NCBI RefSeq assembly: GCF_024609325.1
Contig: NZ_JANHMQ010000002.1
Location: 372,001 to 436,000 of the forward strand
Source: Geothrix fuzhouensis
GTDB lineage: Bacteria > Acidobacteriota > Holophagae > Holophagales > Holophagaceae
Reading direction: 5' to 3'
Length of the DNA stretch: 64,000 bases
Part shown: piece by piece, positions 1 through 16,569 of the stretch
Layout: each line of letters begins with the position of its first letter
Position numbering within the stretch: position 1 is the first letter of the stretch
Position numbers and translations under genes: made by a program
The notes under the pieces: model-generated
Told to the model about the DNA's origin: nothing
The model's database searches: none
Seen by the model: only the letters and a program-made list of their open reading frames with translations

Positions 1-63
1 CGAGAAGATGAGAGAGAGCGGAAGACAATGCAGGCGGGGTCCGAGTTGAGCGGAGGGTTAGGC
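1..63 (-). repeat. attC of cassette 24 (cut by window edge)
   Basis: Only the R'' half is present: the right arm (CAGGCGGGGTCC), the L'' box and the core ending at position 63 as GTTAGGC on the plus strand. It matches the same part of the other attC sites, so the array very probably continues to the left of the window. Confidence 0.9.
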
Positions 64-72
64 CGAATGGGC

Positions 73-960: not shown

Positions 961-978
961 GGACAACCTATGGATGCG

Positions 979-1102
979 GCCTAACGAATGAAGCTAACCG
1001 GCCCCGCCTGCACCGAGGTGCTGAACGGAGCCGAGGAAGCGAGAAGTTGAGAGAGAGCGAAAGGCAATGCAGGCGGGGTCCGAGTTGAGCGCAGGGTTAG
1101 AC
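979..1102 (-). repeat. attC of cassette 23
   Basis: A 124-bp site running from core GCCTAAC (979) to core GTTAGAC (1102), with inner complementary arms CCCCGCCTGCA and TGCAGGCGGGG. The outer R'' core has A in place of G (GTTAGAC). Confidence 0.95.
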
Positions 1103-1122
1103 CGCACCATAGCAAGCCTTGG

Positions 1123-1926
1123 TTATTTGGCATCTGGGGTAGGCATGGGAAGTAATGTGATTTGGCCTGTTGGTTCAATGCGGTAGTGCACACCTTTACC
1201 GAGGACGTGCCAACGGACATTAGGGAATAAAATTGCAACTGCCACATCGGTCTCAGTGGGGTAATCAGAATTAGCGTGGTTATGCCCGAACCCAGGGTCG
1301 TGAGCACCAGGAGGCAAAGACTTAATCAAATCTTTCGGGTGAACCTTATGAACGGTTTGATGAAAAGTCGTAACGACATAAGGTTTGGCCTCGCCTGGAA
1401 GGTAAGAGGACTTCAGGTCTTTGCCAATAATAATTTCATCCGGGTTGTCTTGCCTGGGCATTACGTACAGGGAAAACCCACCCGTTGGCTCGAGCATAGG
1501 AATCATGTACATCACGTACGATAATTCGCCGAATTGTTTCTTCCAGGAGGCAAAGTAATTTGCTAATTCAATAACGTCGGATGGCAATTTGATTGACTCA
1601 AGGACCCTGCCCAATTTTATATCCTTAACGTCACACTCAACGACTTTGTAGACGGTGAATTCTTTGTTGAAGGAGCCAGGTTTTTCGTAGAATACAAGCC
1701 AGCGGTTTCCATCACGAACAATGACAGGCGAGCCAATATTTTTGGGATTTTCTCCTGCCTGCTTCAGGATTGATTTGGTTGAATTTTCTATCAGGATTCG
1801 ATCAGCAAGATCTGCTCCTCGCTTTTCAAGCCAAACGACTCGGGCCAGTTCTGGACCAGTCGCGTTGGCTGCGGGTGCTTGATGTGTTGCGAGAAGTGAC
1901 CAAACCAACAATGGAAGAAAGGTCAT
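1123..1926 (-). CDS. cassette 23: secreted protein of unknown function
   Basis: The 267-residue protein begins at an ATG at 1926 with a short hydrophobic signal peptide ending near ATHQAPAAN, so it is probably exported. The rest is soluble, with alternating hydrophobic beta segments and a His-rich stretch near residues 190-222 (FHQTVHKVH, then GFGHNHAN) that could bind metal. I recognise no family. The attC follows 20 bp after the stop. It is a single-gene cassette in the usual orientation. Confidence 0.7.
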   Translation of the reverse strand: MTFLPLLVWSLLATHQAPAANATGPELARVVWLEKRGADLADRILIENSTKSILKQAGENPKNIGSPVIVRDGNRWLVFYEKPGSFNKEFTVYKVVECDVKDIKLGRVLESIKLPSDVIELANYFASWKKQFGELSYVMYMIPMLEPTGGFSLYVMPRQDNPDEIIIGKDLKSSYLPGEAKPYVVTTFHQTVHKVHPKDLIKSLPPGAHDPGFGHNHANSDYPTETDVAVAILFPNVRWHVLGKGVHYRIEPTGQITLLPMPTPDAK

Positions 1927-1948
1927 GTTGGATGTCTCCTAAAGTGCG

Positions 1949-2072
1949 GGCTAACGAATGAAGCTAACCGGCCCCGCCTGCACCGAGGCGCTGAGCGGAG
2001 CCGAGGAAGCAGGGAGTTGAGAGAGAGCGGATGGCAATGCAGGCGGGGTCCGAGTTGAGCGCAGGGTTAGGC
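1949..2072 (-). repeat. attC of cassette 22
   Basis: Full site; the R' core is GGCTAAC (one change from GCCTAAC) and the R'' end is GTTAGGC. The R'' core supplies the TAA stop of the GIY-YIG-like gene (TTA at 2067-2069 on the plus strand). Confidence 0.95.
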
Positions 2073-2504
2073 TGAAGAGTCATCGTGGAATTTTGATTGA
2101 TTGAAAGGCCATTCGCCAGTGCATTGAACCACCAAGCCAGGTCGAGAAATCCGTGTCTTTTTACTTTGGATGTTGCCCCATGGGGATACACGATGAATCA
2201 ACAGGCTCTCAACGTCGGCGAGTAGCTCACTAGAAAGCCTTCGCCCCTCAGGCAGATAGAGTTCACCCAGTAACGGGATGTGCTCTGTGATGCCACGATC
2301 TTTTTCGAGGTCGTTCCAGAAATGTTCCTTGGCTGCCCGAGTCCACCTTCCGCGAACACTCACGCCCCATGATTTCCCGATGTAAAGCACCTCAAGAGTC
2401 TTAGGGGCGAGATAGGCGTAAAGGCACTTGATGTTCTGCCAGGACTCATCCTGATGGCTTGTGAGACCACGCCAATCAACCCTGACAAGATATTTGTCGG
2501 TCAT
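2067..2504 (-). CDS. cassette 22: GIY-YIG-like nuclease domain protein
   Basis: The 145-residue protein has the layout of a GIY-YIG endonuclease domain: a first strand CLYAYLA (residues 28-34), a second strand VLYIGKS (39-45), a basic helix with RGRWTRAAKEH, and a later Glu in ADVESLLI followed by PWGN, matching the family's catalytic Glu and conserved Asn. Members are homing endonucleases, UvrC-type repair enzymes and restriction enzymes. A stand-alone domain in a cassette could be a small repair or defence nuclease. The start is the ATG at 2504; the stop codon lies inside the attC core. The family call rests on motif order only. Confidence 0.65.
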   Translation of the reverse strand: MTDKYLVRVDWRGLTSHQDESWQNIKCLYAYLAPKTLEVLYIGKSWGVSVRGRWTRAAKEHFWNDLEKDRGITEHIPLLGELYLPEGRRLSSELLADVESLLIHRVSPWGNIQSKKTRISRPGLVVQCTGEWPFNQSKFHDDSSA

Positions 2505-2511
2505 GTGTGAA

Positions 2512-2635
2512 GCCTAACGAATGGAGCTAACCGGCCACGCCTGCACCGAGGCGCTGAGCGAAGCCGAGGAAGCAGGGAGATAAGAGAGAGCGGAAGGCAA
2601 TGCAGGCGGGGTCCGAGTTGAGCTGAAGGTTAGGC
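2512..2635 (-). repeat. attC of cassette 21
   Basis: Full 124-bp site from GCCTAAC to GTTAGGC. The left arm reads GGCCACGCCTGC, giving one mismatch in the inner stem compared with most sites. Confidence 0.95.
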
Positions 2636-2650
2636 CGCACCAGGGTTTTT

Positions 2651-2911
2651 TCATGAATTCACCTTACGCCATAGCCAGAGAAGGCCAAAGGCGACAATGA
2701 ACGCAAGCTGGACGAAGTCGAGCCAAATCGGATTGTCATCGAATGGAACATCGATAGCCGTGGAAAGCTGGCTTCTACATGGGATGAAGGACCAAATTAG
2801 GGCAGAGAAGAATCCGCGTTTCTTCACCATGTAGGCGAAGGAGATCACAACGCTGACCCCAAACCCCACAAAGAGGGCTGAGTAGAGTGTCTCCGTGAAG
2901 GAAGCAATCAT
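2651..2911 (-). CDS. cassette 21: small two-helix membrane protein
   Basis: The 86-residue product has two predicted membrane helices (about residues 8-28 and 66-82) joined by a loop containing one Cys (SFIPCRSQL). The start at 2911 is an ATG nine bases inside the cassette edge. I know of no homologue and see no motif. Such small membrane proteins are common integron cassette cargo. Alone in its cassette, in the usual orientation. Confidence 0.6.
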   Translation of the reverse strand: MIASFTETLYSALFVGFGVSVVISFAYMVKKRGFFSALIWSFIPCRSQLSTAIDVPFDDNPIWLDFVQLAFIVAFGLLWLWRKVNS

Positions 2912-2919
2912 TCAGTGCG

Positions 2920-3043
2920 GCCTAACGAATGAAGCTAACCGGCCACGCCTGCACCGGGGCGATGAGCGGAGCCGAGGAAGCGAGATGAAGAGAAAGAGCG
3001 GAAGACAATGCAGGCGGGGTCCGAGTTGAGCTAAGGGTTAGGC
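2920..3043 (-). repeat. attC of cassette 20
   Basis: Full 124-bp site from GCCTAAC to GTTAGGC with arm GGCCACGCCTGC. The R'' core provides the TAA stop of the 86-residue gene of this cassette. Confidence 0.95.
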
Positions 3044-3298
3044 CGATGGCGGGTATTGGACCCATACGGACTCCCCTTCATGGTGTTCTTGAATGGTCCA
3101 AATGTCCTTCGTGATTGCCTGAAGATCCTCAGGATCACGATGCTCAGAGAACACAGTCACCACAATTCCGGCTTCTCTCAGTCGAGCCACTTCTTCCTTG
3201 GTGAGAACGCCCTCGTTCAACCAGATAGGCGAAGGCGTTCGACCTAGCTCCGCCACGAGGTCTTGGTATCCCGTTGTGGTTTGTACGTAGAAAACCAT
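3038..3298 (-). CDS. cassette 20: small soluble protein, unknown
   Basis: The 86-residue acidic protein has no signal peptide or membrane segment. The ATG at 3298 lies five bases after the cassette's own 5' core (GTTAGGCCTCC then ATG), so the AGG of the core is the only visible Shine-Dalgarno. The TAA stop is likewise inside the attC core, so the gene fills its cassette edge to edge. A helix followed by a strand (EEVARLREAGIVVTVFSE) suggests a small alpha/beta fold. Function unknown. Confidence 0.65.
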   Translation of the reverse strand: MVFYVQTTTGYQDLVAELGRTPSPIWLNEGVLTKEEVARLREAGIVVTVFSEHRDPEDLQAITKDIWTIQEHHEGESVWVQYPPSA

Positions 3299-3302
3299 GG
3301 AG

Positions 3303-3426
3303 GCCTAACGAATGAAGCTAACCGGCCCCGCCTGCACCGAGGCGATGAGCGGAGCCGAGGAAGCGAGAAGCTGAGAGAGAGCGGAAGGCAATGCAGGCGG
3401 GGTCCGAGTTGAGCGGAGGGTTAGGG
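3303..3426 (-). repeat. attC of cassette 19
   Basis: Full 124-bp site from GCCTAAC to GTTAGGG. The R'' core carries the TAA stop of the Mrr-type gene. Confidence 0.95.
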
Positions 3427-3963
3427 CTCAGACGCTGCAAGCCCGAGTGCTTGACGGGTGAACCGATTGAAGTCTTCGGACATGAGGCCGATCTGGCCGT
3501 CATGATGCCACCACCCAGCATATTTAAAAGTTCCAGCCCAATCTGGTCGAGTTGGGAGCGGTGCTTCGCTTCTTACGAACCAGGAGGTGTTGCCATCAGC
3601 AAGCTGAACAAGAGCGATCCCGTGTGATTTGGCAAACTCAATTGCCCCAGCTTGAAATCCGGCAGTCGAGAACAACATGCCTTTGTGAGCCCCGAGAGAC
3701 TGGAGTTTGCTGAGTAGAACTTGTACATCCTGTCTCTCGACCTTTCGTTTGTGGTGCTTGCACTCCACGAGCACGACAAATTCGGCATTGAGCGCAGAGA
3801 AACGTGCAACTACGTCGATCACGTAGTCACCATCTGGACCGCCTACCTTTTCCTGATGGGTAGATGTGTATGAGATGAGCGGCTCTCCAGTGGCATCGAG
3901 AATGCCCTTCACGGCCAACTCAAAATCCAGGGGCGACAATGAAATCGGTTGGTCAGAAAACAT
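3421..3963 (-). CDS. cassette 19: Mrr-type restriction endonuclease-like protein
   Basis: The 180-residue protein matches the Mrr_cat branch of PD-(D/E)XK nucleases: an N-terminal helix FELAVKGIL, a strand with YVIDVVA (Asp of the active site), then VVLVECKHH (Glu-x-Lys) and the typical GMLFSTAGFQAGAIEFA segment of Mrr-like proteins. These enzymes cut DNA, often modified or foreign DNA, so a defence role is plausible, although no methylase or helicase partner is present in the cassette. It starts at the ATG at 3963; AGGG in the cassette's 5' core is the likely Shine-Dalgarno. The stop lies in the attC core. Confidence 0.8.
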   Translation of the reverse strand: MFSDQPISLSPLDFELAVKGILDATGEPLISYTSTHQEKVGGPDGDYVIDVVARFSALNAEFVVLVECKHHKRKVERQDVQVLLSKLQSLGAHKGMLFSTAGFQAGAIEFAKSHGIALVQLADGNTSWFVRSEAPLPTRPDWAGTFKYAGWWHHDGQIGLMSEDFNRFTRQALGLAASEP

Positions 3964-3970
3964 TGCTGAG

Positions 3971-4094
3971 CCCTAACGAATGAAGCTAACCGGCCCAACC
4001 GCAGCCGGACGATGGGAGGAGAACGGAAATCCAAGTCCACACGGGAGCGCGGAAGGCACGTGCGGTTGGGTCCGAGTTGAGCGCGAGGTTAGGC
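3971..4094 (-). repeat. attC of cassette 18 (divergent arms with compensatory change)
   Basis: The cores are CCCTAAC and GTTAGGC. The inner arms differ from all other sites (CCCAACCGCA on the left, TGCGGTTGGG on the right), yet remain complementary to each other. The central spacer is also different. It belongs to the ORF-less cassette at 4095-4409. Confidence 0.93.
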
Positions 4095-4409
4095 CGAGCC
4101 CTAAGCAGTAGCGCCCCGAGCACGCGTTGCGCCTGGATTTGAGCCTGCTTGGCTGAGAGCGAAAGTTCATGCCGACGACTCCAAAAGGAAATTGCCGGAG
4201 TTATCGCGTGAGAGTGAAGGGCGAGACGCTGAAGTGACCTCGATGATGGCAGAAATCCATGGGCCGATGGTTGATGAGTAAGCGATAACCCTATTCCTTG
4301 ACTGCTGAAGACGGAGGAACGGCGGGGTTTTGCCGATGGAGCGGATCGGAAGGCTGAAGCCGAATCAGTGCCCCACCACCCAGCAGACAGAAAGAGAAGG
4401 GCGAACGAG
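4095..4409 (-). other. cassette 18 body: ORF-less, copy A of a duplicated 315-bp cassette
   Basis: There is no convincing gene in this 315-bp body. It aligns without a single gap to 9815-10129 (same length; about 84 percent identical by hand count). Identity is near complete over the first 220 bp, poor over about 80 bp (4311-4390) and high again at the end. An invariant inverted repeat, GTTATCGC at about 4200 and GCGATAAC at about 4282, encloses the best-conserved part. Short plus-strand frames (4169-4237 and 4243-4281) are shared, but nearly all changes in them alter amino acids. Possible roles are a structured RNA, a promoter or a regulatory DNA element. Confidence 0.7.
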
Positions 4410-4533
4410 GCCTAACGAGTGAAGCTAACCGGCCCCGCCTGCACCGAGGCGCTGAACGGAGCCGAGGAAGCGAGAAGCTGAGAGAGAGCAAATGGCAATG
4501 CAGGCGGGGTCCGAGTTGAGCGCAGGGTTAGGC
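4410..4533 (-). repeat. attC of cassette 17
   Basis: Full 124-bp site from GCCTAAC to GTTAGGC, with GAGTGAAG instead of GAATGAAG next to the R' core. Confidence 0.95.
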
Positions 4534-4560
4534 CGGGCTCAATCTGGCACCATTGGCAAT

Positions 4561-5064
4561 TCAAACAAGAGGAAGCCCGTCTCCATCATTCATTTTTTTG
4601 GTAATTATAGCGATTAAATCATAAACGGACCACCCAACTACAGCTAACATACAAAAAATGAAAAATGTATTGTCGGATTTTTTATCAATTGATGTGACAA
4701 TCAACCCAATAAAAGAAAATAGCGAAAATATTAACTTAATAAATCCAGAAGTTTTGTGTCCGAGGTATAGCCGGTCTAAACCTGATAAGATAATTCCTGC
4801 ACCGGTCAAAAGGCTGCCACCAGATAAAGCCATGGCGACAGTGCGAGATTTGGTCGAAAAAAGCAATGCCTCGTCTTTAGCTTGAAAATATGAACCGGAT
4901 TCAAATCGCAACTCAGTGCTAGGGCCAATTTCGTTTGAGTCTCTCATGTTAATTAATTGGTCAATTGAGTATGGGCCATATTCTTGGCCGCGAATTCGAA
5001 CATAATAATTGTCAGCGCCGGCAATAGAGGACGACCCAAACATGGGTGATTGAAAGGTTGTCAT
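4561..5064 (-). CDS. cassette 17: GYF_2-like plus TM2-domain membrane protein
   Basis: The 167-residue product (ATG at 5064, preceded by AGGAGG) joins two modules. The N-terminal half (residues about 20-70: YYVRIRGQEYGPYSIDQL... then ELRFESG) fits the GYF_2/DUF4339 pattern, a small domain often found in front of membrane domains. The C-terminal half has two or three hydrophobic helices with GLDRLYLGHKTSG, the turn typical of TM2 domains. The sequence is clearly AT-richer than the chromosome, consistent with acquisition from another genome. It is the second gene of a two-gene cassette. Cellular role unknown. Confidence 0.7.
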   Translation of the reverse strand: MTTFQSPMFGSSSIAGADNYYVRIRGQEYGPYSIDQLINMRDSNEIGPSTELRFESGSYFQAKDEALLFSTKSRTVAMALSGGSLLTGAGIILSGLDRLYLGHKTSGFIKLIFSLFSFIGLIVTSIDKKSDNTFFIFCMLAVVGWSVYDLIAIITKKMNDGDGLPLV

Positions 5065-5095
5065 ATCCTGCCTCCTAATGGTAGATGAAAAAAAA

Positions 5096-5308
5096 TTAAC
5101 ATAGTTCAATTAGAGGATGCCCTGGATCTTCAATCCATTGCTGTGCCGCTTCTCGTGAGTTGCATTGTCGGATTGTGCCATCGACGAATTTGGCTTCCCA
5201 GGATCTCTCGCTTACCTGCTCAATGCTACCTACCGGGAGATCGTTCTGATCATATGCGGTCCATTCCTCGAAAGCAGGACTGGCTTTTACCCAGCGTAAT
5301 TTCGGCAT
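5096..5308 (-). CDS. cassette 17: small soluble protein, first gene of a two-gene cassette
   Basis: The 70-residue acidic protein starts at the ATG at 5308, five bases after GGAGG; a TTG four codons upstream is possible but less likely. It has no signal or membrane segment. The pattern WVKASPAFEEWTAY...GSIEQVSERSWEAKF looks like a small beta-rich fold. It is followed after 31 bp by the GYF/TM2 gene, which has its own strong Shine-Dalgarno, so the two are probably co-transcribed. Function unknown. Confidence 0.6.
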   Translation of the reverse strand: MPKLRWVKASPAFEEWTAYDQNDLPVGSIEQVSERSWEAKFVDGTIRQCNSREAAQQWIEDPGHPLIELC

Positions 5309-5325
5309 TTCGACCTCCAAATAGG

Positions 5326-5449
5326 GCCTAACGAATGAAGCTAACCGGCCTCGCCTGCACCGAGGCGCTGAGCGGAGCCGAGGAAGCGAAGAGAAGAGAG
5401 AGAGCGGAAGACAATGCAGGCGGGGTCCGAGTTGAGCTGAGGGTTAGGG
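5326..5449 (-). repeat. attC of cassette 16
   Basis: Full 124-bp site from GCCTAAC to GTTAGGG; the left arm is GGCCTCGCCTGC. The R'' core supplies the TAA stop of the lipoprotein gene. Confidence 0.95.
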
Positions 5450-5806
5450 CTCACTTGGCATAGCGAAAGTTTTGCCATTCCAATTTGCAACCCAGACATG
5501 GTTTTCTGAATCTATGAATCTCATTTTGTTGAAGCCTTTGCGATGTGCGATCTCTGAAAGATGATTGGAGCCGTCAGCCTCAGAGGCAAGGATCACGCTG
5601 ACCATCACCCGGGAGATGTTTGAACCAGTGTGGACAAGGCAGGTTGAATCCCTTGGATCAATGGAAAGCCTGATTGGGTTTGGTGTGTTAGCAAGGGACT
5701 GATTAGTGCTGTCAACCCAGTGCTGGCGTGAAGCCAGGGAAGGCCGGCATCCGATCAGTAGAGAAAGAGAAAATCCCAAAACAATCGTGAAAATAGAATT
5801 GCTCAA
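5444..5806 (-). CDS. cassette 16: small lipoprotein, unknown
   Basis: The 120-residue product begins at a TTG at 5806, chosen because GGGAGG stands six bases upstream and no ATG or GTG occurs before the signal. The N-terminus (SLSLLIGC, Cys near residue 20) is a lipoprotein signal, so the mature part should be lipid-anchored. The mature part has a beta-rich look (FIDSENHVWVANWNGKTF) and two further Cys. The stop codon is the TAA of the attC core. Function unknown. Confidence 0.65.
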   Translation of the reverse strand: MSNSIFTIVLGFSLSLLIGCRPSLASRQHWVDSTNQSLANTPNPIRLSIDPRDSTCLVHTGSNISRVMVSVILASEADGSNHLSEIAHRKGFNKMRFIDSENHVWVANWNGKTFAMPSEP

Positions 5807-5831
5807 CTGATACCTCCCAGAATTGGGTGAG

Positions 5832-5955
5832 GCCTAACGAATGAAGCTAACCGGCCCCGCCTGCACCGAGGCGCTGAACGGAGCCGAGGAAGCGAGAAGG
5901 TGAGAGAGAGCGGAAGGCAATGCAGGCGGGGTCCGAGTTGAGCGGAGGGTTAGGC
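5832..5955 (-). repeat. attC of cassette 15
   Basis: Full 124-bp site from GCCTAAC to GTTAGGC with the consensus inner arms. Confidence 0.95.
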
Positions 5956-5961
5956 GCCCAG

Positions 5962-6585
5962 TCACCGACGACCAAAATGGAAAATGACTCCAAGCTGCAG
6001 CCATTGTGCCTTATCTAAAGGAAAGGGTTCCCCTTGCTCCTTACCGAGATTGACATGGTGGACTGAGCCCACAACACCCAGCCAGGGCTTGAATTGGTAA
6101 CCAGCGTTCGCACTGATTCCAAGTCTCCTATATTGCCGATAGCGTACAGTAGAAGCCCAAGTGCCACCGAAAGGGGACGGAGTCATAACGGTTAAATCAC
6201 GATTGAGTTCTGTATTATTTACACCGAGACCTGCATTCCAGCCATGATTACGCGAATTGAAGTAATGGCACCATTCAAGTCCAATTTGAAAATAGTGGTA
6301 CTCATTCCGAAGGGCTGTCGAGGGATCAATATTTTCGAATTCACCTGTGAACCCGACTGAGTTGACGGTTGCTCTCACATCGTCGAGGGCGGAAACCTGG
6401 TAGCTCAGATTGAGGCCAAGAGCCCCGGCTCCATTGAAGGATTTATGTGTGCCAGCGTATTGATCAGTGGATAAACCATTGAGCGGAATTCCAGAAGAAA
6501 GCTGAATACCCCAACTAATGTCTTGAGCATTCAAAAATGCTGAAGAAAAGAGAATCAAGGCGAGGCGATGAGCGAAGCGTTTCAT
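5962..6585 (-). CDS. cassette 15: outer-membrane beta-barrel protein
   Basis: The 207-residue protein has a cleavable signal peptide (start ATG at 6585 after GAGGAAA; processing near FLNAQD). The remainder alternates short amphipathic strands and Gly/Asn-rich turns and ends with WLQLGVIFHFGRR, a terminal strand with aromatic and hydrophobic alternation as in outer-membrane barrels. The size fits an eight-stranded barrel. Substrate or role cannot be inferred. An outer-membrane protein carried in a cassette would change the cell surface directly. Confidence 0.7.
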   Translation of the reverse strand: MKRFAHRLALILFSSAFLNAQDISWGIQLSSGIPLNGLSTDQYAGTHKSFNGAGALGLNLSYQVSALDDVRATVNSVGFTGEFENIDPSTALRNEYHYFQIGLEWCHYFNSRNHGWNAGLGVNNTELNRDLTVMTPSPFGGTWASTVRYRQYRRLGISANAGYQFKPWLGVVGSVHHVNLGKEQGEPFPLDKAQWLQLGVIFHFGRR

Positions 6586-6613
6586 TGAGTTTCCTCAGGA
6601 AAAGGGTTGGGGC

Positions 6614-6737
6614 GCCTAACGAATGAAGCTAACCGGCCGCGCCTGCACCGAGGCGATGAGCGGAGCCGAGGAAGCAGGGAGACGAGAAAGAGCGGAAGGC
6701 AATGCAGGCGGGGTCCGAGTTGAGCTGAGGGTTAGGA
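6614..6737 (-). repeat. attC of cassette 14
   Basis: Full 124-bp site from GCCTAAC to GTTAGGA; the left arm is GGCCGCGCCTGC. Confidence 0.95.
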
Positions 6738-6749
6738 GTTCCATGCGAA

Positions 6750-7229
6750 TCACTTGGGTGTGGAAGGCAAGGAACTTACATCGGCAATGTAGATGCGTGT
6801 TGTGCTTGAAGAACTGCTACTGCCCGTAGCCCTGGCTTCGAGCATTCCGCCACCGCCTGACGAACTGGTCGAAACGACCATTGCAACTTCCCATGGGCCC
6901 GTGTCGCCTTCGCGAGTAGGTAGGAATTTGATCTTCCTCCAAGCGCTACGGAAGGTGAACCAGAGTGGATTCGAACCCTCGATCTTTTCGAAATCGGAAA
7001 CTTCGCCGTTCGATTTCACCTTCAGACGTACTTCTAGTGTTCCTGAAGGGACATCACGGACTTCCTGAAAGATTCGAGAATAAGAGCCGGGTTCGATTTT
7101 CAGCCTGCCTGCTTCTTTGGTGATTTTCATGGGCTGGATTGGTTCCGTGGACTGCTGGAGATTAGCTGCTGTAGGAACAGGCGCAACAAGGGCCGATGAG
7201 CATAGGACGAATGAGGTGGTGAAGAACAT
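6750..7229 (-). CDS. cassette 14: exported TonB-C-like domain protein
   Basis: The 159-residue protein starts at the ATG at 7229 with a signal peptide (cleavage near ALVAPVPTAA). Residues about 60-118 resemble a TonB C-terminal domain (GTLEVRLKVKSNGEVSDF, then AWRKIKFLPT), which in TonB contacts outer-membrane receptors. There is no TonB transmembrane anchor or Pro-rich spacer, so it is not an energy transducer in itself. A Gly/Ser-rich tail follows. The Shine-Dalgarno AGGAG is created by the cassette's 5' core (GTTAGGAG) eight bases before ATG. Confidence 0.65.
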   Translation of the reverse strand: MFFTTSFVLCSSALVAPVPTAANLQQSTEPIQPMKITKEAGRLKIEPGSYSRIFQEVRDVPSGTLEVRLKVKSNGEVSDFEKIEGSNPLWFTFRSAWRKIKFLPTREGDTGPWEVAMVVSTSSSGGGGMLEARATGSSSSSSTTRIYIADVSSLPSTPK

Positions 7230-7237
7230 TGGGGGAC

Positions 7238-7361
7238 TCCTAACGGAAGAAGCTAACCGGCCCCGCCTGCACCGAAACGGCGAGCGGAGCCGGGATAGCG
7301 AAATGTTGAGAGAGAGCGGAAGGCAATGCAGGCGGGGTCCGAGTTGAGCGAGAGGTTAGGC
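7238..7361 (-). repeat. attC of cassette 13
   Basis: Full site; the R' core is TCCTAAC followed by GGAAGAAG instead of GAATGAAG, and the spacer contains CCGAAACGGCGAGC. R'' is GTTAGGC. Confidence 0.93.
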
Positions 7362-7385
7362 CGCCCTAAGTTGTTAGCTTGAATT

Positions 7386-8147
7386 TTAATTCACAACCCA
7401 TGTGGAAGCATATTCTCTATAAAGTCGCCTGCCAATTTTACTCAGATAACTCCGTAGTATAGATGAATAAACGCGAGATTCAAAAAGTGCCTGCCCGAAT
7501 CGATCATCTTCAGAGTATGATTGAATATAATATTTAAATTTAGAAGTAATATAATGTCGATTGATTAGGTGATGAGAAAGCATTGTCAATGTTGATATTA
7601 ACGCAAATTTAACCATGATTTGTTCAATTTCATGATTTGGATCGAGAGAGGCCTGCTGAGAGAATACACCAGAGTGGCTATATCCGTGAAAGGCCTTTAA
7701 TAATTCGCGAGTTTCAGGGAGTTCAGGTTTTTTAATTTTATTTAAAACGTGATTTGTTAAATTAATATTTTCACCATTAGACCATCGACTTAGGAGGGTG
7801 TCATCGTCAATTATTGCGCAATATTTTGCCAAATATAATGATTCGAAGACAGGCCTAAAGAATAATGCGGAAGATCCATGGAGCCCTCTTTGGTTGAGGC
7901 GGATAGCGGCATAGAAATTTAAACAATTTTTGTGTAATGTTGCAAAAAGTAAATTACTAGAATGATTGTGCCCGGTGAACTCATGTAACCTTCTTAAGCC
8001 GGCCGAAATTCTTAATATTTCAAAATGAGAATTAAGTACATTGATTGTCGGCTCAAGTATTCTTCGAGCTGGCTCCTTTATGAATATAGAAAGCTTCTCC
8101 GACCGTTCGTCCATCATGTCGAAGAATTCTCGATCAGAATCGTACAT
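7386..8147 (-). CDS. cassette 13: DUF5677-like helical protein
   Basis: The 253-residue, mostly helical protein resembles the DUF5677 type: a central stretch around residues 75-115 (RLNQRGLHGSSALFFRPVFE, then LAKYCAI) is the usual conserved core, with His/Arg-rich helices before it. No catalytic residues are established for the family. The gene is markedly AT-rich compared with the chromosome and even with neighbouring cassettes, pointing to an origin in a low-GC genome. The ATG at 8147 lies close to the cassette edge. Single-gene cassette. Confidence 0.6.
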   Translation of the reverse strand: MYDSDREFFDMMDERSEKLSIFIKEPARRILEPTINVLNSHFEILRISAGLRRLHEFTGHNHSSNLLFATLHKNCLNFYAAIRLNQRGLHGSSALFFRPVFESLYLAKYCAIIDDDTLLSRWSNGENINLTNHVLNKIKKPELPETRELLKAFHGYSHSGVFSQQASLDPNHEIEQIMVKFALISTLTMLSHHLINRHYITSKFKYYIQSYSEDDRFGQALFESRVYSSILRSYLSKIGRRLYREYASTWVVN

Positions 8148-8155
8148 GGGAAGCG

Positions 8156-8279
8156 GCCTAACGAATGAAGCTAACCGGCCCCGCCTGCACCGAGGTGCTG
8201 AGCGGAGCCGAGGAAGCGAGAAGCTGAGAGAGAACGGAAGGCAATGCAGGCGGGGTCCGAGTTGAGCTAGGGGTTAGGC
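8156..8279 (-). repeat. attC of cassette 12
   Basis: Full 124-bp site from GCCTAAC to GTTAGGC with consensus arms. Confidence 0.95.
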
Positions 8280-8299
8280 CGAAAGTAGAATTGCCCCGA

Positions 8300-8533
8300 T
8301 TATTCGTTGATGCAACGAGTCGCCCAGGTCGCGAACTGGCGCAGGGGAATGCTTTCTATTGCTGGGATTTGGATATCATTCAATGATTGCCACTTGATAA
8401 CGAACGGGGCTTCGCCGATGCCCCCAGGGCGGCTTGGAAGACAGATTGCTTCTTCATTGTCGATTAATAGAACGGTCATATTCCATTCAGAATCAGTTGG
8501 GCCTTCATAGGTTTTCCCACGTGCGATTTTCAT
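8300..8533 (-). CDS. cassette 12, second gene: small soluble protein, unknown
   Basis: The 77-residue protein (ATG at 8533) overlaps the end of the upstream gene by four bases, so translation is probably coupled. No signal or membrane segment. The content (MKIARGKTYEG...VLLIDNEEAICLP) suggests a compact beta-rich fold. With the neighbouring exported protein it forms a two-gene cassette. I see no toxin or antitoxin hallmark that would settle its role. Confidence 0.6.
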   Translation of the reverse strand: MKIARGKTYEGPTDSEWNMTVLLIDNEEAICLPSRPGGIGEAPFVIKWQSLNDIQIPAIESIPLRQFATWATRCINE

Positions 8534-9066
8534 TTATTGACCCCCTTATCGCTACGAGGATATTTGTAAGGTTTGATCATTCCACGTGATTTCATTATTT
8601 CAAATAATGATGTGGCTTCTTTGATGTAGTCTGAAACCAAACGTTTTCTTCCCCAGTCCCTAGAATTTCGTAATGATTGATTGGCAAGGAAGATGGTCAT
8701 TTCTTCTACTGAAACATTTTCCTTGTCTGCCATTGCTTGGGCACATCCAAGGTCGACACAGATTGATGATTCTGGGAATCCTAATTCGAGGCGATTTAGA
8801 ATGTACCTACCGATAATCGGATTCGGCTTATAGGCGCTCCAGCCTTGGGCATCCAGAAGTGGTGTTGGTGGAAGCCCATCCCATGACGTCAGTAGGTTTT
8901 TCGTTGAGGGTTCAGGAGATGGTGAGGGAGCAACAAATGGTTGGGCCAAAGGTTTGTCAGCCACTCCCCTCGCCCGCCCAGGCCCGTCACTTAACCTTGG
9001 GAGAGAGGCGATCGCACCAAGGAGAGCGACGGTGCCGATGCCGATATAGAGCGCTTTCCTATTCAA
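8530..9066 (-). CDS. cassette 12, first gene: membrane-anchored protein, unknown
   Basis: The 178-residue product begins at a TTG at 9066; AGGAGG five bases upstream supports this start. One N-terminal membrane helix (LYIGIGTVALLGAIASL) is followed by a Pro/Ser-rich linker and a soluble helical domain from about residue 75. Two Cys lie close together (SICVDLGCA). The TGA/ATG overlap with the next gene indicates an operon inside the cassette. Function unknown. Confidence 0.65.
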   Translation of the reverse strand: MNRKALYIGIGTVALLGAIASLPRLSDGPGRARGVADKPLAQPFVAPSPSPEPSTKNLLTSWDGLPPTPLLDAQGWSAYKPNPIIGRYILNRLELGFPESSICVDLGCAQAMADKENVSVEEMTIFLANQSLRNSRDWGRKRLVSDYIKEATSLFEIMKSRGMIKPYKYPRSDKGVNK

Positions 9067-9092
9067 CGATTCCTCCTAAATCTTCTGATGAG

Positions 9093-9216
9093 GCCTAACG
9101 AATGAAGCTAACCGGCCCTGCCTGCACCGAGGCGTTGAGCGGAGTCGAGGAAGCGGGAAGCTGAGAGAGAGCGAAAGGCAATGCAGGCGGGGTCCGAGTT
9201 GAGCGGAGGGTTAGGG
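9093..9216 (-). repeat. attC of cassette 11
   Basis: Full 124-bp site from GCCTAAC to GTTAGGG; the left arm is GGCCCTGCCTGC. The R'' core gives the TAA stop of the cassette gene. Confidence 0.95.
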
Positions 9217-9684
9217 CAGCTCGTGAAGCATGTTCGCTTGCGCATTCTGTATTTCGCGATGCACCTTGTGGACAAGGTTACTAAAATTTGTAATATCGTC
9301 AGTGCCTCGAAAGCATTTCCAGATTGAAAAAGGCATCGCTTGAATAACCAGAGTATCGGTGACACCTGTGGGATGGTATCGCCACTCAGCATGGGCAATG
9401 GCCTTATTTCTTAATGTTTTCAAATGCCTATGAAGTCGTAATTCATTTGTATCAAGACTGGCCAGCACAGTATTGGGGACTCTCGACTCGGATGGAGAAG
9501 GTGAGCCCTTCTTCTCATTCCCCGAAAAAGGGCGGATGTAAAAGATGATCGCCGAGATTAGAAGAGCCTCGTAGGCTTCACTGCTGTAGGCATGCTCACT
9601 CATGGCCTTAATGAACCGCAAGCAATTCTCTAGGTCCAGCGAGGCGCTAGTTAGCCGGTTGATCCTAGCTCGCGGACCGTTCAT
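9211..9684 (-). CDS. cassette 11: helical protein with a possible HEPN RNase motif
   Basis: The 157-residue, mostly helical protein contains RNKAIAH (residues about 92-98) at the end of a long helix, which fits the Arg-x(4-6)-His motif of HEPN RNases. These act in toxin-antitoxin, abortive-infection and CRISPR systems. The motif is short, so this is a suggestion, not an assignment. The start is the ATG at 9684, with AGGG of the 5' core six bases upstream; the stop is the TAA of the attC core. No partner antitoxin gene lies in this cassette. Confidence 0.55.
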   Translation of the reverse strand: MNGPRARINRLTSASLDLENCLRFIKAMSEHAYSSEAYEALLISAIIFYIRPFSGNEKKGSPSPSESRVPNTVLASLDTNELRLHRHLKTLRNKAIAHAEWRYHPTGVTDTLVIQAMPFSIWKCFRGTDDITNFSNLVHKVHREIQNAQANMLHELP

Positions 9685-9690
9685 TGAGTG

Positions 9691-9814
9691 CCCTAACGAA
9701 TGAAGCTAACCGGCCCCGCCTGGACCGAGGCGACGAGCGGAGCCGAGATAGCGAGAAGAAGAGAAGGAGCGGAAGGCAATGCAGGCGGGGTCCGAGTTGA
9801 GCGCGAGGTTAGGC
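9691..9814 (-). repeat. attC of cassette 10
   Basis: Full site from CCCTAAC to GTTAGGC. Unlike the site of the sister cassette 18 it has the common arms, but the R'' end (GCGCGAGGTTAGGC) is shared with it. Confidence 0.95.
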
Positions 9815-10129
9815 CGAGCCCTAGGCAGTAGCCCCCCGAGCACGCGTTGCGCTTGGATTTGAGCCTGCTTGAGCGAGAGCGAAGGTTCATGCCGACGAGC
9901 CCAAAAGGAGAACACCGGAGTTATCGCGTGAGAGTGAAGGCCGAGAAGCTGAAGTGACCTCGATGATGGCAGAAATCCATGGGCCGAAGGTTGATGAGTA
10001 AGCGATAACCCTATTCAATAGAACCAGAAAACTGAGGAACGACGCGGATCTTCCGCTGGAGCGGGCCAAGGCGACGAAGCTGGACCAGCACCCCACCACC
10101 CAGCAGACAGAAGGAGCCAGGCGAACGAG
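9815..10129 (-). other. cassette 10 body: ORF-less, copy B of a duplicated 315-bp cassette
   Basis: It is the same length as and aligns gap-free with 4095-4409. The invariant inverted repeat is GTTATCGC (about 9920) with GCGATAAC (about 10002). A minus-strand frame (9887-10099, GTG start) is open here, but copy A has a TGA four codons after the equivalent start and no replacement start, so it is probably not a gene. The divergent 80-bp block (10031-10110) contains the perfect palindrome GCTGGACCAGC, absent from copy A. Function unknown: structured RNA, promoter or DNA element. Confidence 0.7.
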
Positions 10130-10253
10130 GCCTAACGAATGAAGCTAACCGGCCCCGCCTGCACCGAGGCGACGAGCGGAGCCGAGGAAGCAGGAAGCTG
10201 AGAGAGAGCGAAAGGCAATGCAGGCGGGGTCCGAGTTGAGCGGAGGGTTAGGC
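10130..10253 (-). repeat. attC of cassette 9
   Basis: Full 124-bp site from GCCTAAC to GTTAGGC with consensus arms. Confidence 0.95.
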
Positions 10254-10280
10254 CGATCATTCGATACCTATTGAAAGAGT

Positions 10281-10520
10281 TTATGAATTTGATTTTTTCC
10301 ATTCTGCTAATCGCTGGGTATCTTCTTGGATTAGGGTTTCCAGCTGTTTTATTGCAATGTGTTGTGATTTTGATAACTCGGAAGGTTGCACGAATAAAAG
10401 CCATGGACCTTTACCCTGAGGCCACATGACGTCTGCCGTAAATGGAAGACCGGCTTCAAGCAGGGTATTTTTGGCTTTTTCGTATAGATCTGAAAATGAA
10501 AATTTATGCGAGATGTCCAA
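10281..10520 (-). CDS. cassette 9: small soluble protein, unknown
   Basis: The 79-residue protein starts at a TTG at 10520, chosen because GGAGG stands about six bases upstream and no ATG is nearby. It is soluble and mostly helical, with a short strand (PWLLFVQPS). No family recognised. Its upstream neighbour is the damaged attC at 10547, so it may now move together with the gene at 10593-11234 as one larger cassette. Confidence 0.55.
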   Translation of the reverse strand: MDISHKFSFSDLYEKAKNTLLEAGLPFTADVMWPQGKGPWLLFVQPSELSKSQHIAIKQLETLIQEDTQRLAEWKKSNS

Positions 10521-10546
10521 AGGGACCTCCAGGAATTAGGACCACG

Positions 10547-10576
10547 GCCTAACGAAAGGAATTATGCAGGCCTGGC
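10547..10576 (-). repeat. attC remnant of cassette 8 (internal deletion)
   Basis: The R' core GCCTAAC and the first bases of a normal site (GAA) are followed directly by GGAATTATGCAGGC, resembling the GGCAATGCAGGC of the right arm, and no R'' core follows. The pattern fits an internal deletion of about 90 bp that removed the left arm, spacer and R''/L'' boxes. Confidence 0.7.
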
Positions 10577-10592
10577 GCCATTGTGTTTATCC

Positions 10593-11234
10593 TCATTTAT
10601 TTAAAATAGTAAATGAGTTTAATATTAGATCGGATTCTTTTGCCTTATTTTCGTCAAAAACATTTGTTAGATACATAATTTCGTATGTCATTTTGTCTAC
10701 TATCATTGAATTACTGACCCCTTTAAATTTACCACCATTTAAGTCAAATGTTTGGTGCCTTGCATCATGCTTACCATTGAACACGAATAAATTATAAGAA
10801 ACGTTAGTAGCTTTTATTGCGCTCAATCCGCCATTAGCCATATTATGCATAACTTGTATTAACTGCTCTCTTGTTGTCCTTTTCTTGTCATAAATTATTG
10901 GGAAATATATTATTTTTACGATAGAAGCATCACGTGTAAAACTAATTTCTGTTAATAATACTTTTCCATTCGGTCCATCTAAAATAGATGATTTCCTTTC
11001 TGGGTCCGAAAATCCATATGGAATCTTGATTGTGAACAAATCGGTTTCAGTATAAACCCTGGGTTCTGAATATTTTTCTAAAATAGTATCGACTTTTTTT
11101 ATATCCTTTAGTCTTTGATTATTTTGATAGTCTAAAACCAATCCGATAATGATTTTAATAATAAAACCTACTATTAACCAGAATATAATTTTTACCAATA
11201 AAGGATACTTTCCATCAGCACCTTTTTTAAGCAT
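10593..11234 (-). CDS. cassette 8: membrane-anchored protein, unknown, AT-rich
   Basis: The 213-residue protein (ATG at 11234) has one strong N-terminal membrane helix (residues about 12-33, rich in Ile) and a soluble alpha/beta domain beyond residue 45 with FTIKIPYGF and VSYNLFVFNGKHD, so it is probably anchored in the membrane with the domain outside. Base composition is very AT-rich, the extreme of the array, suggesting recent arrival from a low-GC donor. Its own attC is reduced to a remnant, so excision as a single cassette should be impaired. No family recognised. Confidence 0.65.
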   Translation of the reverse strand: MLKKGADGKYPLLVKIIFWLIVGFIIKIIIGLVLDYQNNQRLKDIKKVDTILEKYSEPRVYTETDLFTIKIPYGFSDPERKSSILDGPNGKVLLTEISFTRDASIVKIIYFPIIYDKKRTTREQLIQVMHNMANGGLSAIKATNVSYNLFVFNGKHDARHQTFDLNGGKFKGVSNSMIVDKMTYEIMYLTNVFDENKAKESDLILNSFTILNK

Positions 11235-11270
11235 TTCTGTTTCTCCTATTCAGGACCCACTGGTGGAGCG

Positions 11271-11394
11271 GCCTAACGAATGGAGCTAACCGGCCACGCC
11301 TGCACCGAGGCGCTGAGCGAAGCCGAGGAAGCAGGAAGATGAAAGAGAGCGGAAGGCAATGCAGGCGGGGTCCGAGTTGAGCTGAGGGTTAGGC
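11271..11394 (-). repeat. attC of cassette 7
   Basis: Full 124-bp site from GCCTAAC to GTTAGGC; the left arm is GGCCACGCCTGC and GAATGGAG follows the R' core. Confidence 0.95.
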
Positions 11395-11403
11395 GCGGTT
11401 GGT

Positions 11404-11775
11404 TCATTGGGGTGTGAGGCGTTGTTGAGCCAAGGGGATGATATTTTGCCGACACTGTGGGCACCTACCAGTCCTGTTCAGATAGAAATCAGGTTTGTAA
11501 AGAGGTTTGGAGCAGAGGGGGCAGGTGAATCCGAATTTTTGGCACAACCAGTTATCCAGTTTATAGATTGCGAATATGCCAAGCCCAACGAAGATGAACA
11601 ATCCGCCAGCCAGGTAAATCAAGATTGCGTTTTTTGAGAGATTGTTGGGTATCAGAAAGGCCAAAAACCACATGAACGGATTTAGGAGGATAAGTAGAAG
11701 GATCACTGCCAGGTTGTGAAACCGGGCAATTTTCTTTCGCGTTCCAGCGAGGGGTTCTGGAAGGACCGTGTGCAT
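11404..11775 (-). CDS. cassette 7: two-helix membrane protein with zinc ribbon
   Basis: The 123-residue protein has two membrane helices (about residues 22-42 and 50-72) and a C-terminal zinc-ribbon-like knuckle pair: CPLC (near 85) and CPQC (near 104). Such ribbons on short membrane proteins are seen in many unstudied families; metal binding is likely, function unknown. The ATG at 11775 is only four bases from the cassette core (GTTAGGCGCC then ATG), so AGG of the core is the only Shine-Dalgarno candidate. Confidence 0.65.
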   Translation of the reverse strand: MHTVLPEPLAGTRKKIARFHNLAVILLLILLNPFMWFLAFLIPNNLSKNAILIYLAGGLFIFVGLGIFAIYKLDNWLCQKFGFTCPLCSKPLYKPDFYLNRTGRCPQCRQNIIPLAQQRLTPQ

Positions 11776-11778
11776 GGC

Positions 11779-11902
11779 GCCTAACGAAAGAAGCTAACCG
11801 GCCCCGCCTGCGCCGAGGCGACGAGCGGAGCCGAGGAAGCGGGAACAAGAGAAGGAGCGGAAGACAATGCAGGCGGGGTCCGAGTTGAGCGGAGGGTTAG
11901 GC
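11779..11902 (-). repeat. attC of cassette 6
   Basis: Full 124-bp site from GCCTAAC to GTTAGGC, with GAAAGAAG next to the R' core and CGCCTGCGCCG in the left arm. Confidence 0.95.
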
Positions 11903-11910
11903 GCGTGAAT

Positions 11911-12480
11911 TTACATACCTGCTAGGAATTGGCCAAAGTCATGTTCAGACCCGGCCAAATCATAAGAGGCCTGTAAGACCACGGCTGGATTTTTGAAGTC
12001 GCGGAGGCGGAGGGAGAGTTGGCCTTTGCCCTGCGAGGCGGATTTCACGAGATTCAGGAGGAGATTTGGTGAGCCTATTCTGAGGGCACTGAAATTGAAC
12101 CCGTCTTTTGGCTGACTCACATACCCACCTGCAGGACAGAACGAGAATCGGGCGGGTGTTGGCGTTCCAATGGTTTCCAGTGTTAGTAACTCGCCAGAAG
12201 CTTGGCTATCTGGACCTTCAAAATCATCGAAGGTGAACCCCTTGATTGTAGAAACTGAGTCGATGACAAGATCGAAGGACCAATAGACCTTGGGCCCGGT
12301 AGACCGCACGAATCTAATCTGAGAGTTTCTTACGCCACTTGGGGTTGAAATTGGGCCCATGAACTCAATGATCCGCGCCCCTTGTGAGTTGACGTGGTAG
12401 GACCAATGTGAAGAAGTCTGGGCGCTGGCTATCGTGGCCACTAGGGCTAGGAAGCACGATTGAAGATTTGTTGATTTCAT
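11911..12480 (-). CDS. cassette 6: secreted protein of unknown function
   Basis: The 189-residue protein starts at the ATG at 12480 with a cleavable signal peptide (processing near TIASAQ). The mature part is predicted to be mainly beta-strand (SHWSYHVNSQGARIIEF, SFDLVIDSVSTI, GQLSLRLRDF) and has a single Cys (FSFCPAGG). It looks like a periplasmic or secreted beta-sandwich. I recognise no family and see no catalytic motif. Single gene in its cassette. Confidence 0.65.
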   Translation of the reverse strand: MKSTNLQSCFLALVATIASAQTSSHWSYHVNSQGARIIEFMGPISTPSGVRNSQIRFVRSTGPKVYWSFDLVIDSVSTIKGFTFDDFEGPDSQASGELLTLETIGTPTPARFSFCPAGGYVSQPKDGFNFSALRIGSPNLLLNLVKSASQGKGQLSLRLRDFKNPAVVLQASYDLAGSEHDFGQFLAGM

Positions 12481-12507
12481 GCGGCTCTCGTATTGAGCAA
12501 TGCCAGC

Positions 12508-12633
12508 GCCTAACGAATGAAGCTAACCGGCCCCGCCGCGGCTGAATGGCTGAGTGGATCGGTTAGATGGGATTGCCAGGGAGTGAGGACCCGGCCGCTT
12601 GCGGCGGGGTCCGAGTTGAGCGAGGGGTTAGGC
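12508..12633 (-). repeat. attC of cassette 5 (divergent spacer)
   Basis: The cores GCCTAAC and GTTAGGC and the flanking boxes are kept, but the stem continues as CCCCGCCGCGG on the left and CCGCTTGCGGCGGGG on the right. The arms still pair although both differ from consensus. Length is 126 bp. Confidence 0.93.
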
Positions 12634-12676
12634 GGAGATGGCACTTTGTTGCTGGGTGCTTTGAGAAGAAAGCCCC

Positions 12677-13087
12677 TCACGATGCAGCGATGAGAAAGAA
12701 AGAGATTGCGATAACTAAGCATAGAGGAGAGAACAACCAAGTATCCCATGTGGCAAAGGTGGTACCGCGCAGACGTTTGAAGAAGCCAATGAGGCGGAAT
12801 TCTCCGATAGATCGAAGGAGAAAGACAAACCCAATCGCAATGGTTCCCCAATGAATAGGTGAAGCAAGGGAAAAGGAGAGGAGGATGGACCCATGAAGTA
12901 AGGCAACGCAAGCTGCGACAGTTAGAGCCAGAGCCACGGCAACAGTAATGAGGCGTGAGGGTTCGAAAGCAGGTTTGCCATCAACTTCGGGAATCACATT
13001 GCGCTTGCCCCAAGGGCCACCAGCAGCCCAATAGATATGTAGGCCGGCTAGGCAGAGCAGGGTGGAGGCGAGGAACACTGGGAGCAT
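12677..13087 (-). CDS. cassette 5: DUF3995-type membrane protein
   Basis: The 136-residue protein has four predicted helices and the hallmarks of DUF3995: LHIYWAAGGPWG near the N-terminus, FLLRSIGEFRLIGFFKR in the third segment and TWLFSPLCL near the end. The family is widespread and uncharacterised. I place the start at the ATG at 13087, about ten bases after GAAGG; a GTG at 13099 would add four residues. The gene is GC-balanced and is the only one of its cassette. Confidence 0.8.
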   Translation of the reverse strand: MLPVFLASTLLCLAGLHIYWAAGGPWGKRNVIPEVDGKPAFEPSRLITVAVALALTVAACVALLHGSILLSFSLASPIHWGTIAIGFVFLLRSIGEFRLIGFFKRLRGTTFATWDTWLFSPLCLVIAISFFLIAAS

Positions 13088-13109
13088 GGTTTGGCGCACC
13101 TTCGTTGAC

Positions 13110-13233
13110 GCCTAACGAATGAAGCTAACCGGACCCGCCTGCACCGAGGCGATGAGCGGAGCCGAGGAAGCAAAATAATGAGAGAGAGCGGAAGACAATG
13201 CAGGCGGGGTCCGAGTTGAGCTAAGGGTTAGAC
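13110..13233 (-). repeat. attC of cassette 4
   Basis: Full 124-bp site from GCCTAAC to GTTAGAC; the left arm is GGACCCGCCTGC. The TAG stop of the cassette gene lies in the L'' side of the site (13221-13223). Confidence 0.95.
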
Positions 13234-13709
13234 CGCGCCGGAAGGGCAATTCCTTCAGCTGCGGCGCGAATCTCGAGTAGATGACGAGGGAGTGAGTGCA
13301 AAGGTTCAAGTGCAAGGGATTGTATTCTGCGTTTGCCAAGGCGTTGATCTAGAACTGCGAGGGACATAACGAGGGGGTCTGAGTCAGATAGGGCCTGCTC
13401 GATAGATAGTTCATGAATGAACCGCCAGCAGCTTTGATAGGCGTCCTGGCGGCTCATTTCGCCGTACTCGACAAATTGCGCTTCGTGCTTCTTAGTTGAA
13501 GAGGCGGGCGTTTGCCTACCAGCCCTTTCATCAGCCAACTTCAAGTAGTGAGCGCGAGTGCAGAAGTTCGCGATGACATCGCCATCGAGAGTGATCCAGG
13601 CATGTCCACAGGAACAATTCCCGTAGGCAGTGCTATGGATGGAGACTCTCTTGCCGAGTGACTCAGCGAACCGGGATTCAATGAGGCTTCGTAATTTGGA
13701 CCATTGCAC
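13221..13709 (-). CDS. cassette 4: protein resembling the SF0329 family, unknown
   Basis: The 162-residue protein begins at a GTG at 13709 (no ATG available before the conserved N-terminus). The start (MQWSKLRSLIESRFAESL) followed by RVSIHSTAYG and HAWITLDGD recalls the uncharacterised SF0329-type family; this is from memory of the pattern and not secure. A Cys pair (NCSCGHAW) could bind metal. The C-terminal half is helical. The stop codon lies within the attC. Confidence 0.55.
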   Translation of the reverse strand: MQWSKLRSLIESRFAESLGKRVSIHSTAYGNCSCGHAWITLDGDVIANFCTRAHYLKLADERAGRQTPASSTKKHEAQFVEYGEMSRQDAYQSCWRFIHELSIEQALSDSDPLVMSLAVLDQRLGKRRIQSLALEPLHSLPRHLLEIRAAAEGIALPARSNP

Positions 13710-13730
13710 GGGTAGGAGTCCCTGGAAGCG

Positions 13731-13854
13731 GGCTAACGAATGAAGCTAACCGGCCACGCCTGCACCGAGGCGCTGAGCGAAGCCGAGGAAGCGAGAAGTT
13801 GAGAGAGAGCGGGAGGCAATGCAGGCGGGGTCCGAGTTGAGCGGAGGGTTAGGC
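13731..13854 (-). repeat. attC of cassette 3
   Basis: Full 124-bp site from GGCTAAC to GTTAGGC. The R'' core holds the TAA stop of the nuclease-like gene. Confidence 0.95.
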
Positions 13855-14325: not shown

Positions 14326-14329
14326 GACG

Positions 14330-14453
14330 GCCTAACGAATGAAGCTAAGCGGCCGCGCCTGCACCGAGGCGATGAGCGGAGCCGGGATAGCGAGATGCTG
14401 AGAGAGAGCGGAAGGCAATGCAGGCGGGGTCCGACTTGAGCGAGGGGTTAGGT
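14330..14453 (-). repeat. attC of cassette 2
   Basis: Full 124-bp site from GCCTAAC to GTTAGGT. The L' box is changed (GCTAAGCGGCC for GCTAACCGGCC), as is L'' (CCGACTTGAG for CCGAGTTGAG). Both changes are G/C swaps. Confidence 0.94.
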
Positions 14454-14473
14454 GCCGAGAGCGATGCTATGAG

Positions 14474-14938: not shown

Positions 14939-14942
14939 GGGC

Positions 14943-15555: not shown

Positions 15556-16569
15556 ATGCTCGAGGTGAATAGGCAGACCGGTGAAGGGCGGAACGCGGGG
15601 ACTGCGACACCGCCGCCCCGGTTCCTGGATCAGCTGCGGGACAGCCTGAGGGTCCGGCATTACAGCCTGCGGACGGAGGACGCTTATGTGGATTGGGTGC
15701 GGCGCTTCATCCTCTTTCACGGCAAGCGTCATCCGAAGGACATGGGGGCGTCCGAAGTCCAGGCGTTTCTGAATCACCTGGCGGTGGACCGGGGCGTGTC
15801 ACCGTCGACGCAGAACCAGGCGAAGGCGGCCCTGCTCTTCCTCTACCGGAACCTGCTGGAGGTGGACCTCCCATGGCTGTCCGAGGTCATCCAGGCCAAG
15901 CGCCAGTCGCGGCTGCCCGTGGTGCTCACACCGGGGGAAGTGCGGGCTTTGTTCGACCAGATGGAGGGCGGGATGGCCCTGCTGGCGCAGGTGCTGTACG
16001 GGACCGGACTGCGGTTGATGGAAGGGCTGCGACTGCGGGTGAAGGACCTGGAGTTCGAGCGGCGGGAGATCGTGGTGCGCGACGGGAAGGGGGGCAAGGA
16101 CCGGGTCACCATGCTCCCGGATCGTCTGGCTGGCCCGCTCCGGGCCCATCTGGACCGGGTGCGCGCCTTGCATGAACGGGATCTGGCGGAGGGGTTCGGG
16201 GAGGTCGCCTTGCCGGATGCGCTGGGGCTCAAGGCCCCCTTCGCGGCGCGGGCTTGGGGTTGGCAGTGGGTCTTTCCGTCGGCCCAGCGTTCGGCGGATC
16301 CCCGCTCGGACGCCTTCTTCCGGCATCACCTCCATCCAGAGAGCGTGCAGAAGGCCGTCCGGCTGGCCGGCCGGGCCGCGGAGCTGGTGAAGCCCGTCAC
16401 GCCGCACGTGCTGCGCCACAGCTTCGCGACCCACCTGCTTGCATCTGGCCACGACATCCGCACCGTGCAGGAGCTGCTGGGGCACAAGGACGTGGCCACC
16501 ACCATGATCTACACCCATGTGCTGAACCGTGGCGGCCGCGGCGTGCCCAGCCCGCTGGATGGGCTGTGA
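15556..16569 (+). CDS. intI: integron integrase IntI
   Basis: This 337-residue tyrosine recombinase inserts and excises cassettes by attI x attC recombination. Residues 20-115 are the SAM-like DNA-binding domain ([15 protein letters not shown]). Catalytic residues visible: Arg153 (GTGLRL), Lys near 181 (KGGKDR), His284 and Arg287 ([13 protein letters not shown]), His310 (LLGH) and Tyr319 (MIYTH). Residues 218-250 (ALPDAL...WQWVFPS) form the additional domain that separates IntI from XerC/XerD and lets it bind folded attC. The ATG at 15556 is the first start in frame. It is divergent from the array, as in standard integrons, and looks intact, so the array may still be active. Confidence 0.97.

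Follow-up and report, generated by a model that had tools for sequence, protein, structure and literature searches.

Integron cassettes of Geothrix that lack an open reading frame form a multi-copy family with a covarying stem and probably carry a structured noncoding RNA

Integron cassettes that carry no gene are usually regarded as filler or as promoters. In Vibrio, most of 29 gene-less cassettes tested showed promoter activity on the sense strand, from promoters stated not to be predictable in silico (PMC11014356). As for RNA, our search of the literature found a single integron-borne small RNA family, sRNA-Xcc1 (Rfam RF02221), which lies beside symE in a Xanthomonas integron cassette and points in the direction opposite to Pc (PMC12444791). 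If a second, unrelated family exists, backed by covariation and numbering up to 17 copies in a genome, integrons would seem to gather and exchange RNA genes besides protein genes.

Such a family is proposed here from an integron array of Geothrix fuzhouensis, in a window of 64,000 nucleotides (the whole stretch of DNA analysed). Its closest precedent is sRNA-Xcc1, in that both would be small noncoding RNA families which sit on integron cassettes and are passed between species. Unlike sRNA-Xcc1, the Geothrix element mostly has its cassette to itself, follows the direction of Pc and is found in several copies per array. The sRNA-Xcc1 covariance model gives no match to the six copies of this genome at E<=10, and an Rfam 15 search of the copies, their relatives and the whole window matched no family, so that the element would be a new RNA family among the known RNA-bearing, ORF-less cassettes. 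The closest functional rivals are the promoter-bearing gene-less cassettes of Vibrio and Treponema (PMC11014356, PMC6557892), which likewise lie ORF-less within integron arrays; those, however, are defined by measured promoter activity, whereas what defines the Geothrix element is a stem that covaries, within a family of recurring sequence.

The array is headed by an integron integrase gene, intI, whose 337-aa product matches NCBIfam TIGR02249 at 462 bits against a cut-off of 265. It extends leftward over positions 1-15100 of the window and some 13 kb past it, with about 42 attC sites in all, and its cassette genes are read on the minus strand; "sense" here means this strand, i.e. the direction of the cassette genes and of the integron Pc. 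The original prediction described two 315-bp blocks that align without a gap and are carried by the integron. Both points hold: the blocks are 84.1% identical over exactly the reported span, and the attC site on each border marks them as integron cassette bodies within the integrase-headed array. An 80-bp block was also said to be more divergent, differing at roughly a third of its positions; it is indeed the more divergent (21 of 80 positions, against 25 of the 216 before it), at a slightly lower 26%. The two copies are real but are not specifically a pair, as the genome holds six, every one within this array. They are spread over its 28 kb in the orientation of Pc, 5-28 kb away from attI, a distance at which Pc is probably weak. 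The coordinates are given in Table 1; the covariance-model matches listed there score 161.6 bits (copy A) and 160.9 bits (copy B), both copies belonging to the model's training set.

Table 1. Features of the two cassettes and their array (window positions unless a locus or genome is named), with the forms of the P1 stem among relatives
Feature	Position or genome	Strand	Basis or remark
ORF-less cassette body, copy A	4095..4409	-	alignment; attC edges; CM match 4152-4295
ORF-less cassette body, copy B	9815..10129	-	alignment; CM match 9872-10015
P1 stem 5' arm, copy A, sense GTTATCGC	4282..4289	-	covariation; sequence
P1 stem 3' arm, copy A, sense GCGATAAC	4200..4207	-	covariation; sequence
P1 stem 5' arm, copy B	10002..10009	-	covariation; sequence
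P1 stem 3' arm, copy B	9920..9927	-	covariation; sequence
Conserved stretch CTTTTGGAGTCGTCGGCATGAAC, 3' of P1, copy A	4165..4187	-	alignments and relatives
Conserved stretch CTTTTGGGCTCGTCGGCATGAAC, 3' of P1, copy B	9885..9907	-	alignments and relatives
P2 hairpin adjoining attC, copy A (weaker support)	4115..4137	-	covariation; unconstrained MFE fold
P2 hairpin adjoining attC, copy B (weaker support)	9835..9857	-	covariation
Variable 5' half of cassette, copy A	4290..4409	-	alignment; small ORF instead in G007
Variable 5' half of cassette, copy B	10010..10129	-	alignment
attC of copy A	3971..4094	-	read from sequence; repeat families D1-D5
attC of copy B	9691..9814	-	read from sequence; repeat families D1-D5
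Integron integrase intI	15556..16569	+	TIGR02249
41-aa membrane-segment ORF upstream of core, G007	L037:10248-10373	-	stands in for 5' half
P1 form GTTATCGC/GCGATAAC	window		
P1 form GTTATTGC/GCAATAAC	G038		
P1 form GTTACTGC/GCAGTAAC	G016, G048		
P1 form GTTGCTG/CAGCAAC	G016		terminal G-U in one copy
P1 form GTTGGTGC/GCACCAAC	G011, G001		
P1 forms GGTTGC/GCAACC and GATTGC/GCAATC	G009		

Close copies share the cassette over its full length, with GTTAGGC at one edge and GCCTAAC at the other. The genes that flank the element vary from copy to copy and are mutually unrelated, the cassettes being self-contained; a constant partner gene was looked for among the copies' neighbours and not found, which makes it unlikely that the element is the leader of one particular neighbour. 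The cassette adjoining copy A (window 3421-3963, minus strand) encodes a 180-aa protein in which a restriction-endonuclease-like motif, VECKHHKRK, can be picked out by eye, with no NCBIfam match. A weak covariance-model match at 15014-15155 was set aside, as it spans the end of another cassette's ORF together with its attC.

The evidence for structure centers on P1, a long-range stem of 8 bp that closes a loop of about 75-120 nt. Its arms had been noticed in the original prediction as an invariant inverted repeat. The repeat is present in both copies, but distant relatives show that it varies: what they keep is the pairing rather than the sequence. Seven forms of the arms occur across relatives, all complementary (Table 1), although in two G009 units the outermost one or two pairs are missing. 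Among close copies just one pair of the repeat varies, and covariation analysis of 29 close copies alone finds none of the pairs significant (best E above 1), so that P1 becomes decisive only once distant relatives are included. The covariation test across homologues that the original prediction had proposed was run on about 43 homologous units. In an alignment built from sequence only, P1 cells are paired in 99.5% of cases and four pairs have changed on both sides, whereas controls in which the partners are slid by 1-3 columns are 24-52% paired and show zero double changes. Adding five distant relatives brings both-side changes to six of the eight P1 pairs, and none of 500 shuffles reaches the observed covariation; because this larger alignment had been fitted to the stem, the sequence-only alignment is the cleaner test. 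Under a tree-aware null, five double events are seen against 0.54 expected. RNAalifold selects P1 unprompted, and the unconstrained MFE folds of copies A and B both contain it. P1 is therefore a real structure, maintained by the compensatory double substitutions in a helix that characterize a structured RNA or another pairing strand. A change of arm sequence under constant pairing points to strand pairing rather than to a double-stranded protein site, and a protein-binding palindrome is ruled out on the same grounds.

Less firmly, a second hairpin, P2, likely forms just before attC. Here 94.4% of cells are paired, seven of the eight pairs show double changes, and copy A forms the hairpin when its MFE structure is computed without constraints. 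P2 was, however, picked from the same alignment on which it was scored, and a slide of +2 still leaves 72.5% of cells paired; we grade it as likely for these reasons. Two stretches of conserved sequence accompany the helices, CGGCCCATGGATTTCTGCC within the P1 loop and CTTTGGGCTCGTCGGCATGAAC after P1, between P1 and P2. A near-complementary site for either was sought elsewhere in the element's own genome and not found; no trans target is thus visible, and contact through a short seed or through a protein becomes more likely. Over the whole cassette the folding energy is unremarkable (z near 0), and it is moderately low only across the P1 region of 90 nt (z about -0.5 to -2.5).

As to which strand folds, the minus (sense) strand is favored by its wobble pairs, G-U cells exceeding A-C cells by 3 to 0 in P1 and by 66 to 9 in P2, the latter hairpin having been selected on the sense strand. 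For the core, RNAalifold z-scores from column shuffling come to -2.6 on the sense and -1.8 on the antisense strand; in the 3' part the corresponding values are -0.9 and +0.4. By these energies neither strand stands out clearly.

Taken at its best fit, each block is an ORF-less integron cassette that probably carries one structured noncoding RNA module, some 200 nt long and read from the minus strand. The original prediction had offered a structured RNA, a promoter or another DNA-level function, a range that is supported as a whole and within which a structured RNA fits best; that RNA would most likely be new, small and mobile between Geothrix species. The module would be transcribed from the minus strand, through read-through or an internal start within the array. 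Counting against this reading, neither copy has an intrinsic terminator (a GC stem and then a T run) or a sigma-70-like site, and the folding energy of the whole cassette is ordinary. The RNA would fold as P1 plus P2, leaving the two conserved stretches exposed and available to a partner, and would work as a stand-alone RNA, on other RNAs or together with protein. Its spread as a cassette would proceed through IntI/attC recombination.

The cassettes are a multi-copy family of Geothrix integrons. A DNA search first turned up copies in further Geothrix genomes, and a covariance model then widened the family to relatives in 15 of the 47 Geothrix genomes and in one genome of another genus of the same family, nearly all of them inside integron cassettes; in one of the 15, G033, the match covers the 3' stretch only, with no P1. 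Every named genome with an exact match to the core is a Geothrix, and the genomes nearest to that of the window belong to one genus. The covariance model finds no element in the rest of the class, nor in a phylum-wide sample of 396 genomes, large genome sets having been searched with stricter filters that may miss weak relatives. Plasmids give no match to the element, nor do viral contigs in a scan for one exact 22-base pattern. On a tree of the copies, those of different species are interleaved and those of G038 group together, which fits cassette exchange along with local amplification. The G038 genome holds 17 copies on contigs C4 and C14-C17 (L041-L045), several of them cut by runs of N, which makes their true number and order uncertain. 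Culturable Geothrix offer natural variation in copy number, with one copy in G. fermentans DSM 14018 and four in SG200, together with stem alleles, and so make the element directly testable.

Two arrangements identify the conserved unit as the 3' core adjoining attC. In G007 the initial 113 nt are exchanged for an ORF of 41 aa that includes a membrane segment, with core and attC downstream. G016 has three successive cassettes with two tandem cores each (L022:297-1981, G016:C60), the tandem cores carrying different stem alleles, of the GTTGCTG and GTTACTGC forms. Such modular joining to attC is unusual. In a separate case, L102 (minus, ~1860-1770; G048:C171), sequence resembling the 3' end of a group II intron lies by an attC-like GTTAGGC upstream of the unit; it falls below the Rfam gathering threshold, and no attC is visible after that unit.

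The foremost alternative is that the cassette chiefly drives the cassettes downstream of it, as the gene-less cassettes of Vibrio have been shown to do. Here the Vibrio precedent and the hidden nature of its promoters (PMC11014356) carry weight, as does the probable weakness of Pc at the copies' distance from attI. A promoter, though, does not require the compensatory evolution of a long-range stem, and it is the half adjoining attC that is conserved, the 5' half being the variable one. A consensus scan, which is weak evidence and does not exclude a promoter, finds no sigma-70-like site in either copy. We consider this reading unlikely.

P1 might instead act as folded single-stranded DNA, aiding excision or integration beside attC or serving as a second site of recombination or replication. 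It pairs equally well on either DNA strand, folding energies are indecisive between the strands, and the module always directly precedes attC and travels together with it. P1 and attC are alike in being inverted repeats that fold as a strand around a variable loop. Their polarity is opposite, however: the outer arms of attC read RYYYAAC ... GTTRRRY, and P1 reads GTTATCGC ... GCGATAAC, i.e. GTT...AAC for AAC...GTT, in a cassette with a normal attC of its own adjoining. Since most cassettes of the same array recombine without P1, and the P2 wobble pairs favor a sense-strand RNA, a role as DNA seems quite improbable.

We give a similarly low rating to a cis-acting element whose folded RNA would alter the elongation, processing or stability of the array transcript in the manner of an antiterminator or insulator. 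Six copies across a 28-kb array in the direction of Pc, intergenic and with varied neighbors, would suit it, but the sequence bears no antiterminator sign and the element is absent from many Geothrix genomes. No better a prospect is a self-spreading RNA module, in which the core plus attC would join varied 5' sequences, such as the small membrane-peptide ORF of G007 or the second core of G016, to yield new cassettes that multiply in arrays, the RNA governing integron expression or shuffling.

Translation of the cassette itself is rejected in all six frames. As originally stated, no frame with coding character is intact in both copies; every frame is interrupted in one copy or another, by a stop or by an indel of a single base, and pN/pS in the core lies at 0.67-0.94, near-equal across the six frames (raw ratios, compared only between frames). 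This near-equality, and the absence of any conserved start codon among the copies, argue against translation, and an open frame with synonymous bias is not seen. That the conserved half nonetheless codes for a short peptide, such as ...VIAYSSTIGPWISAIIEVTS... on the minus strand, is very improbable: a few of its variable positions do fall at third or I/V/F/L positions, and copies without the 1-nt deletion share the column of its stop, but two copies have an in-frame stop and the P1 arms switch to unrelated codons while still pairing.

Outside the window, and about 53 kb from the integron array, an sRNA-Xcc1-like motif lies at L103:2072-2158 (G000:C2:306572-306658, minus), scoring 48 bits (E 1.4e-6), just under the Rfam gathering score of 53. 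It adjoins a 108-aa ORF whose product looks, by eye, like a small helical-bundle protein.
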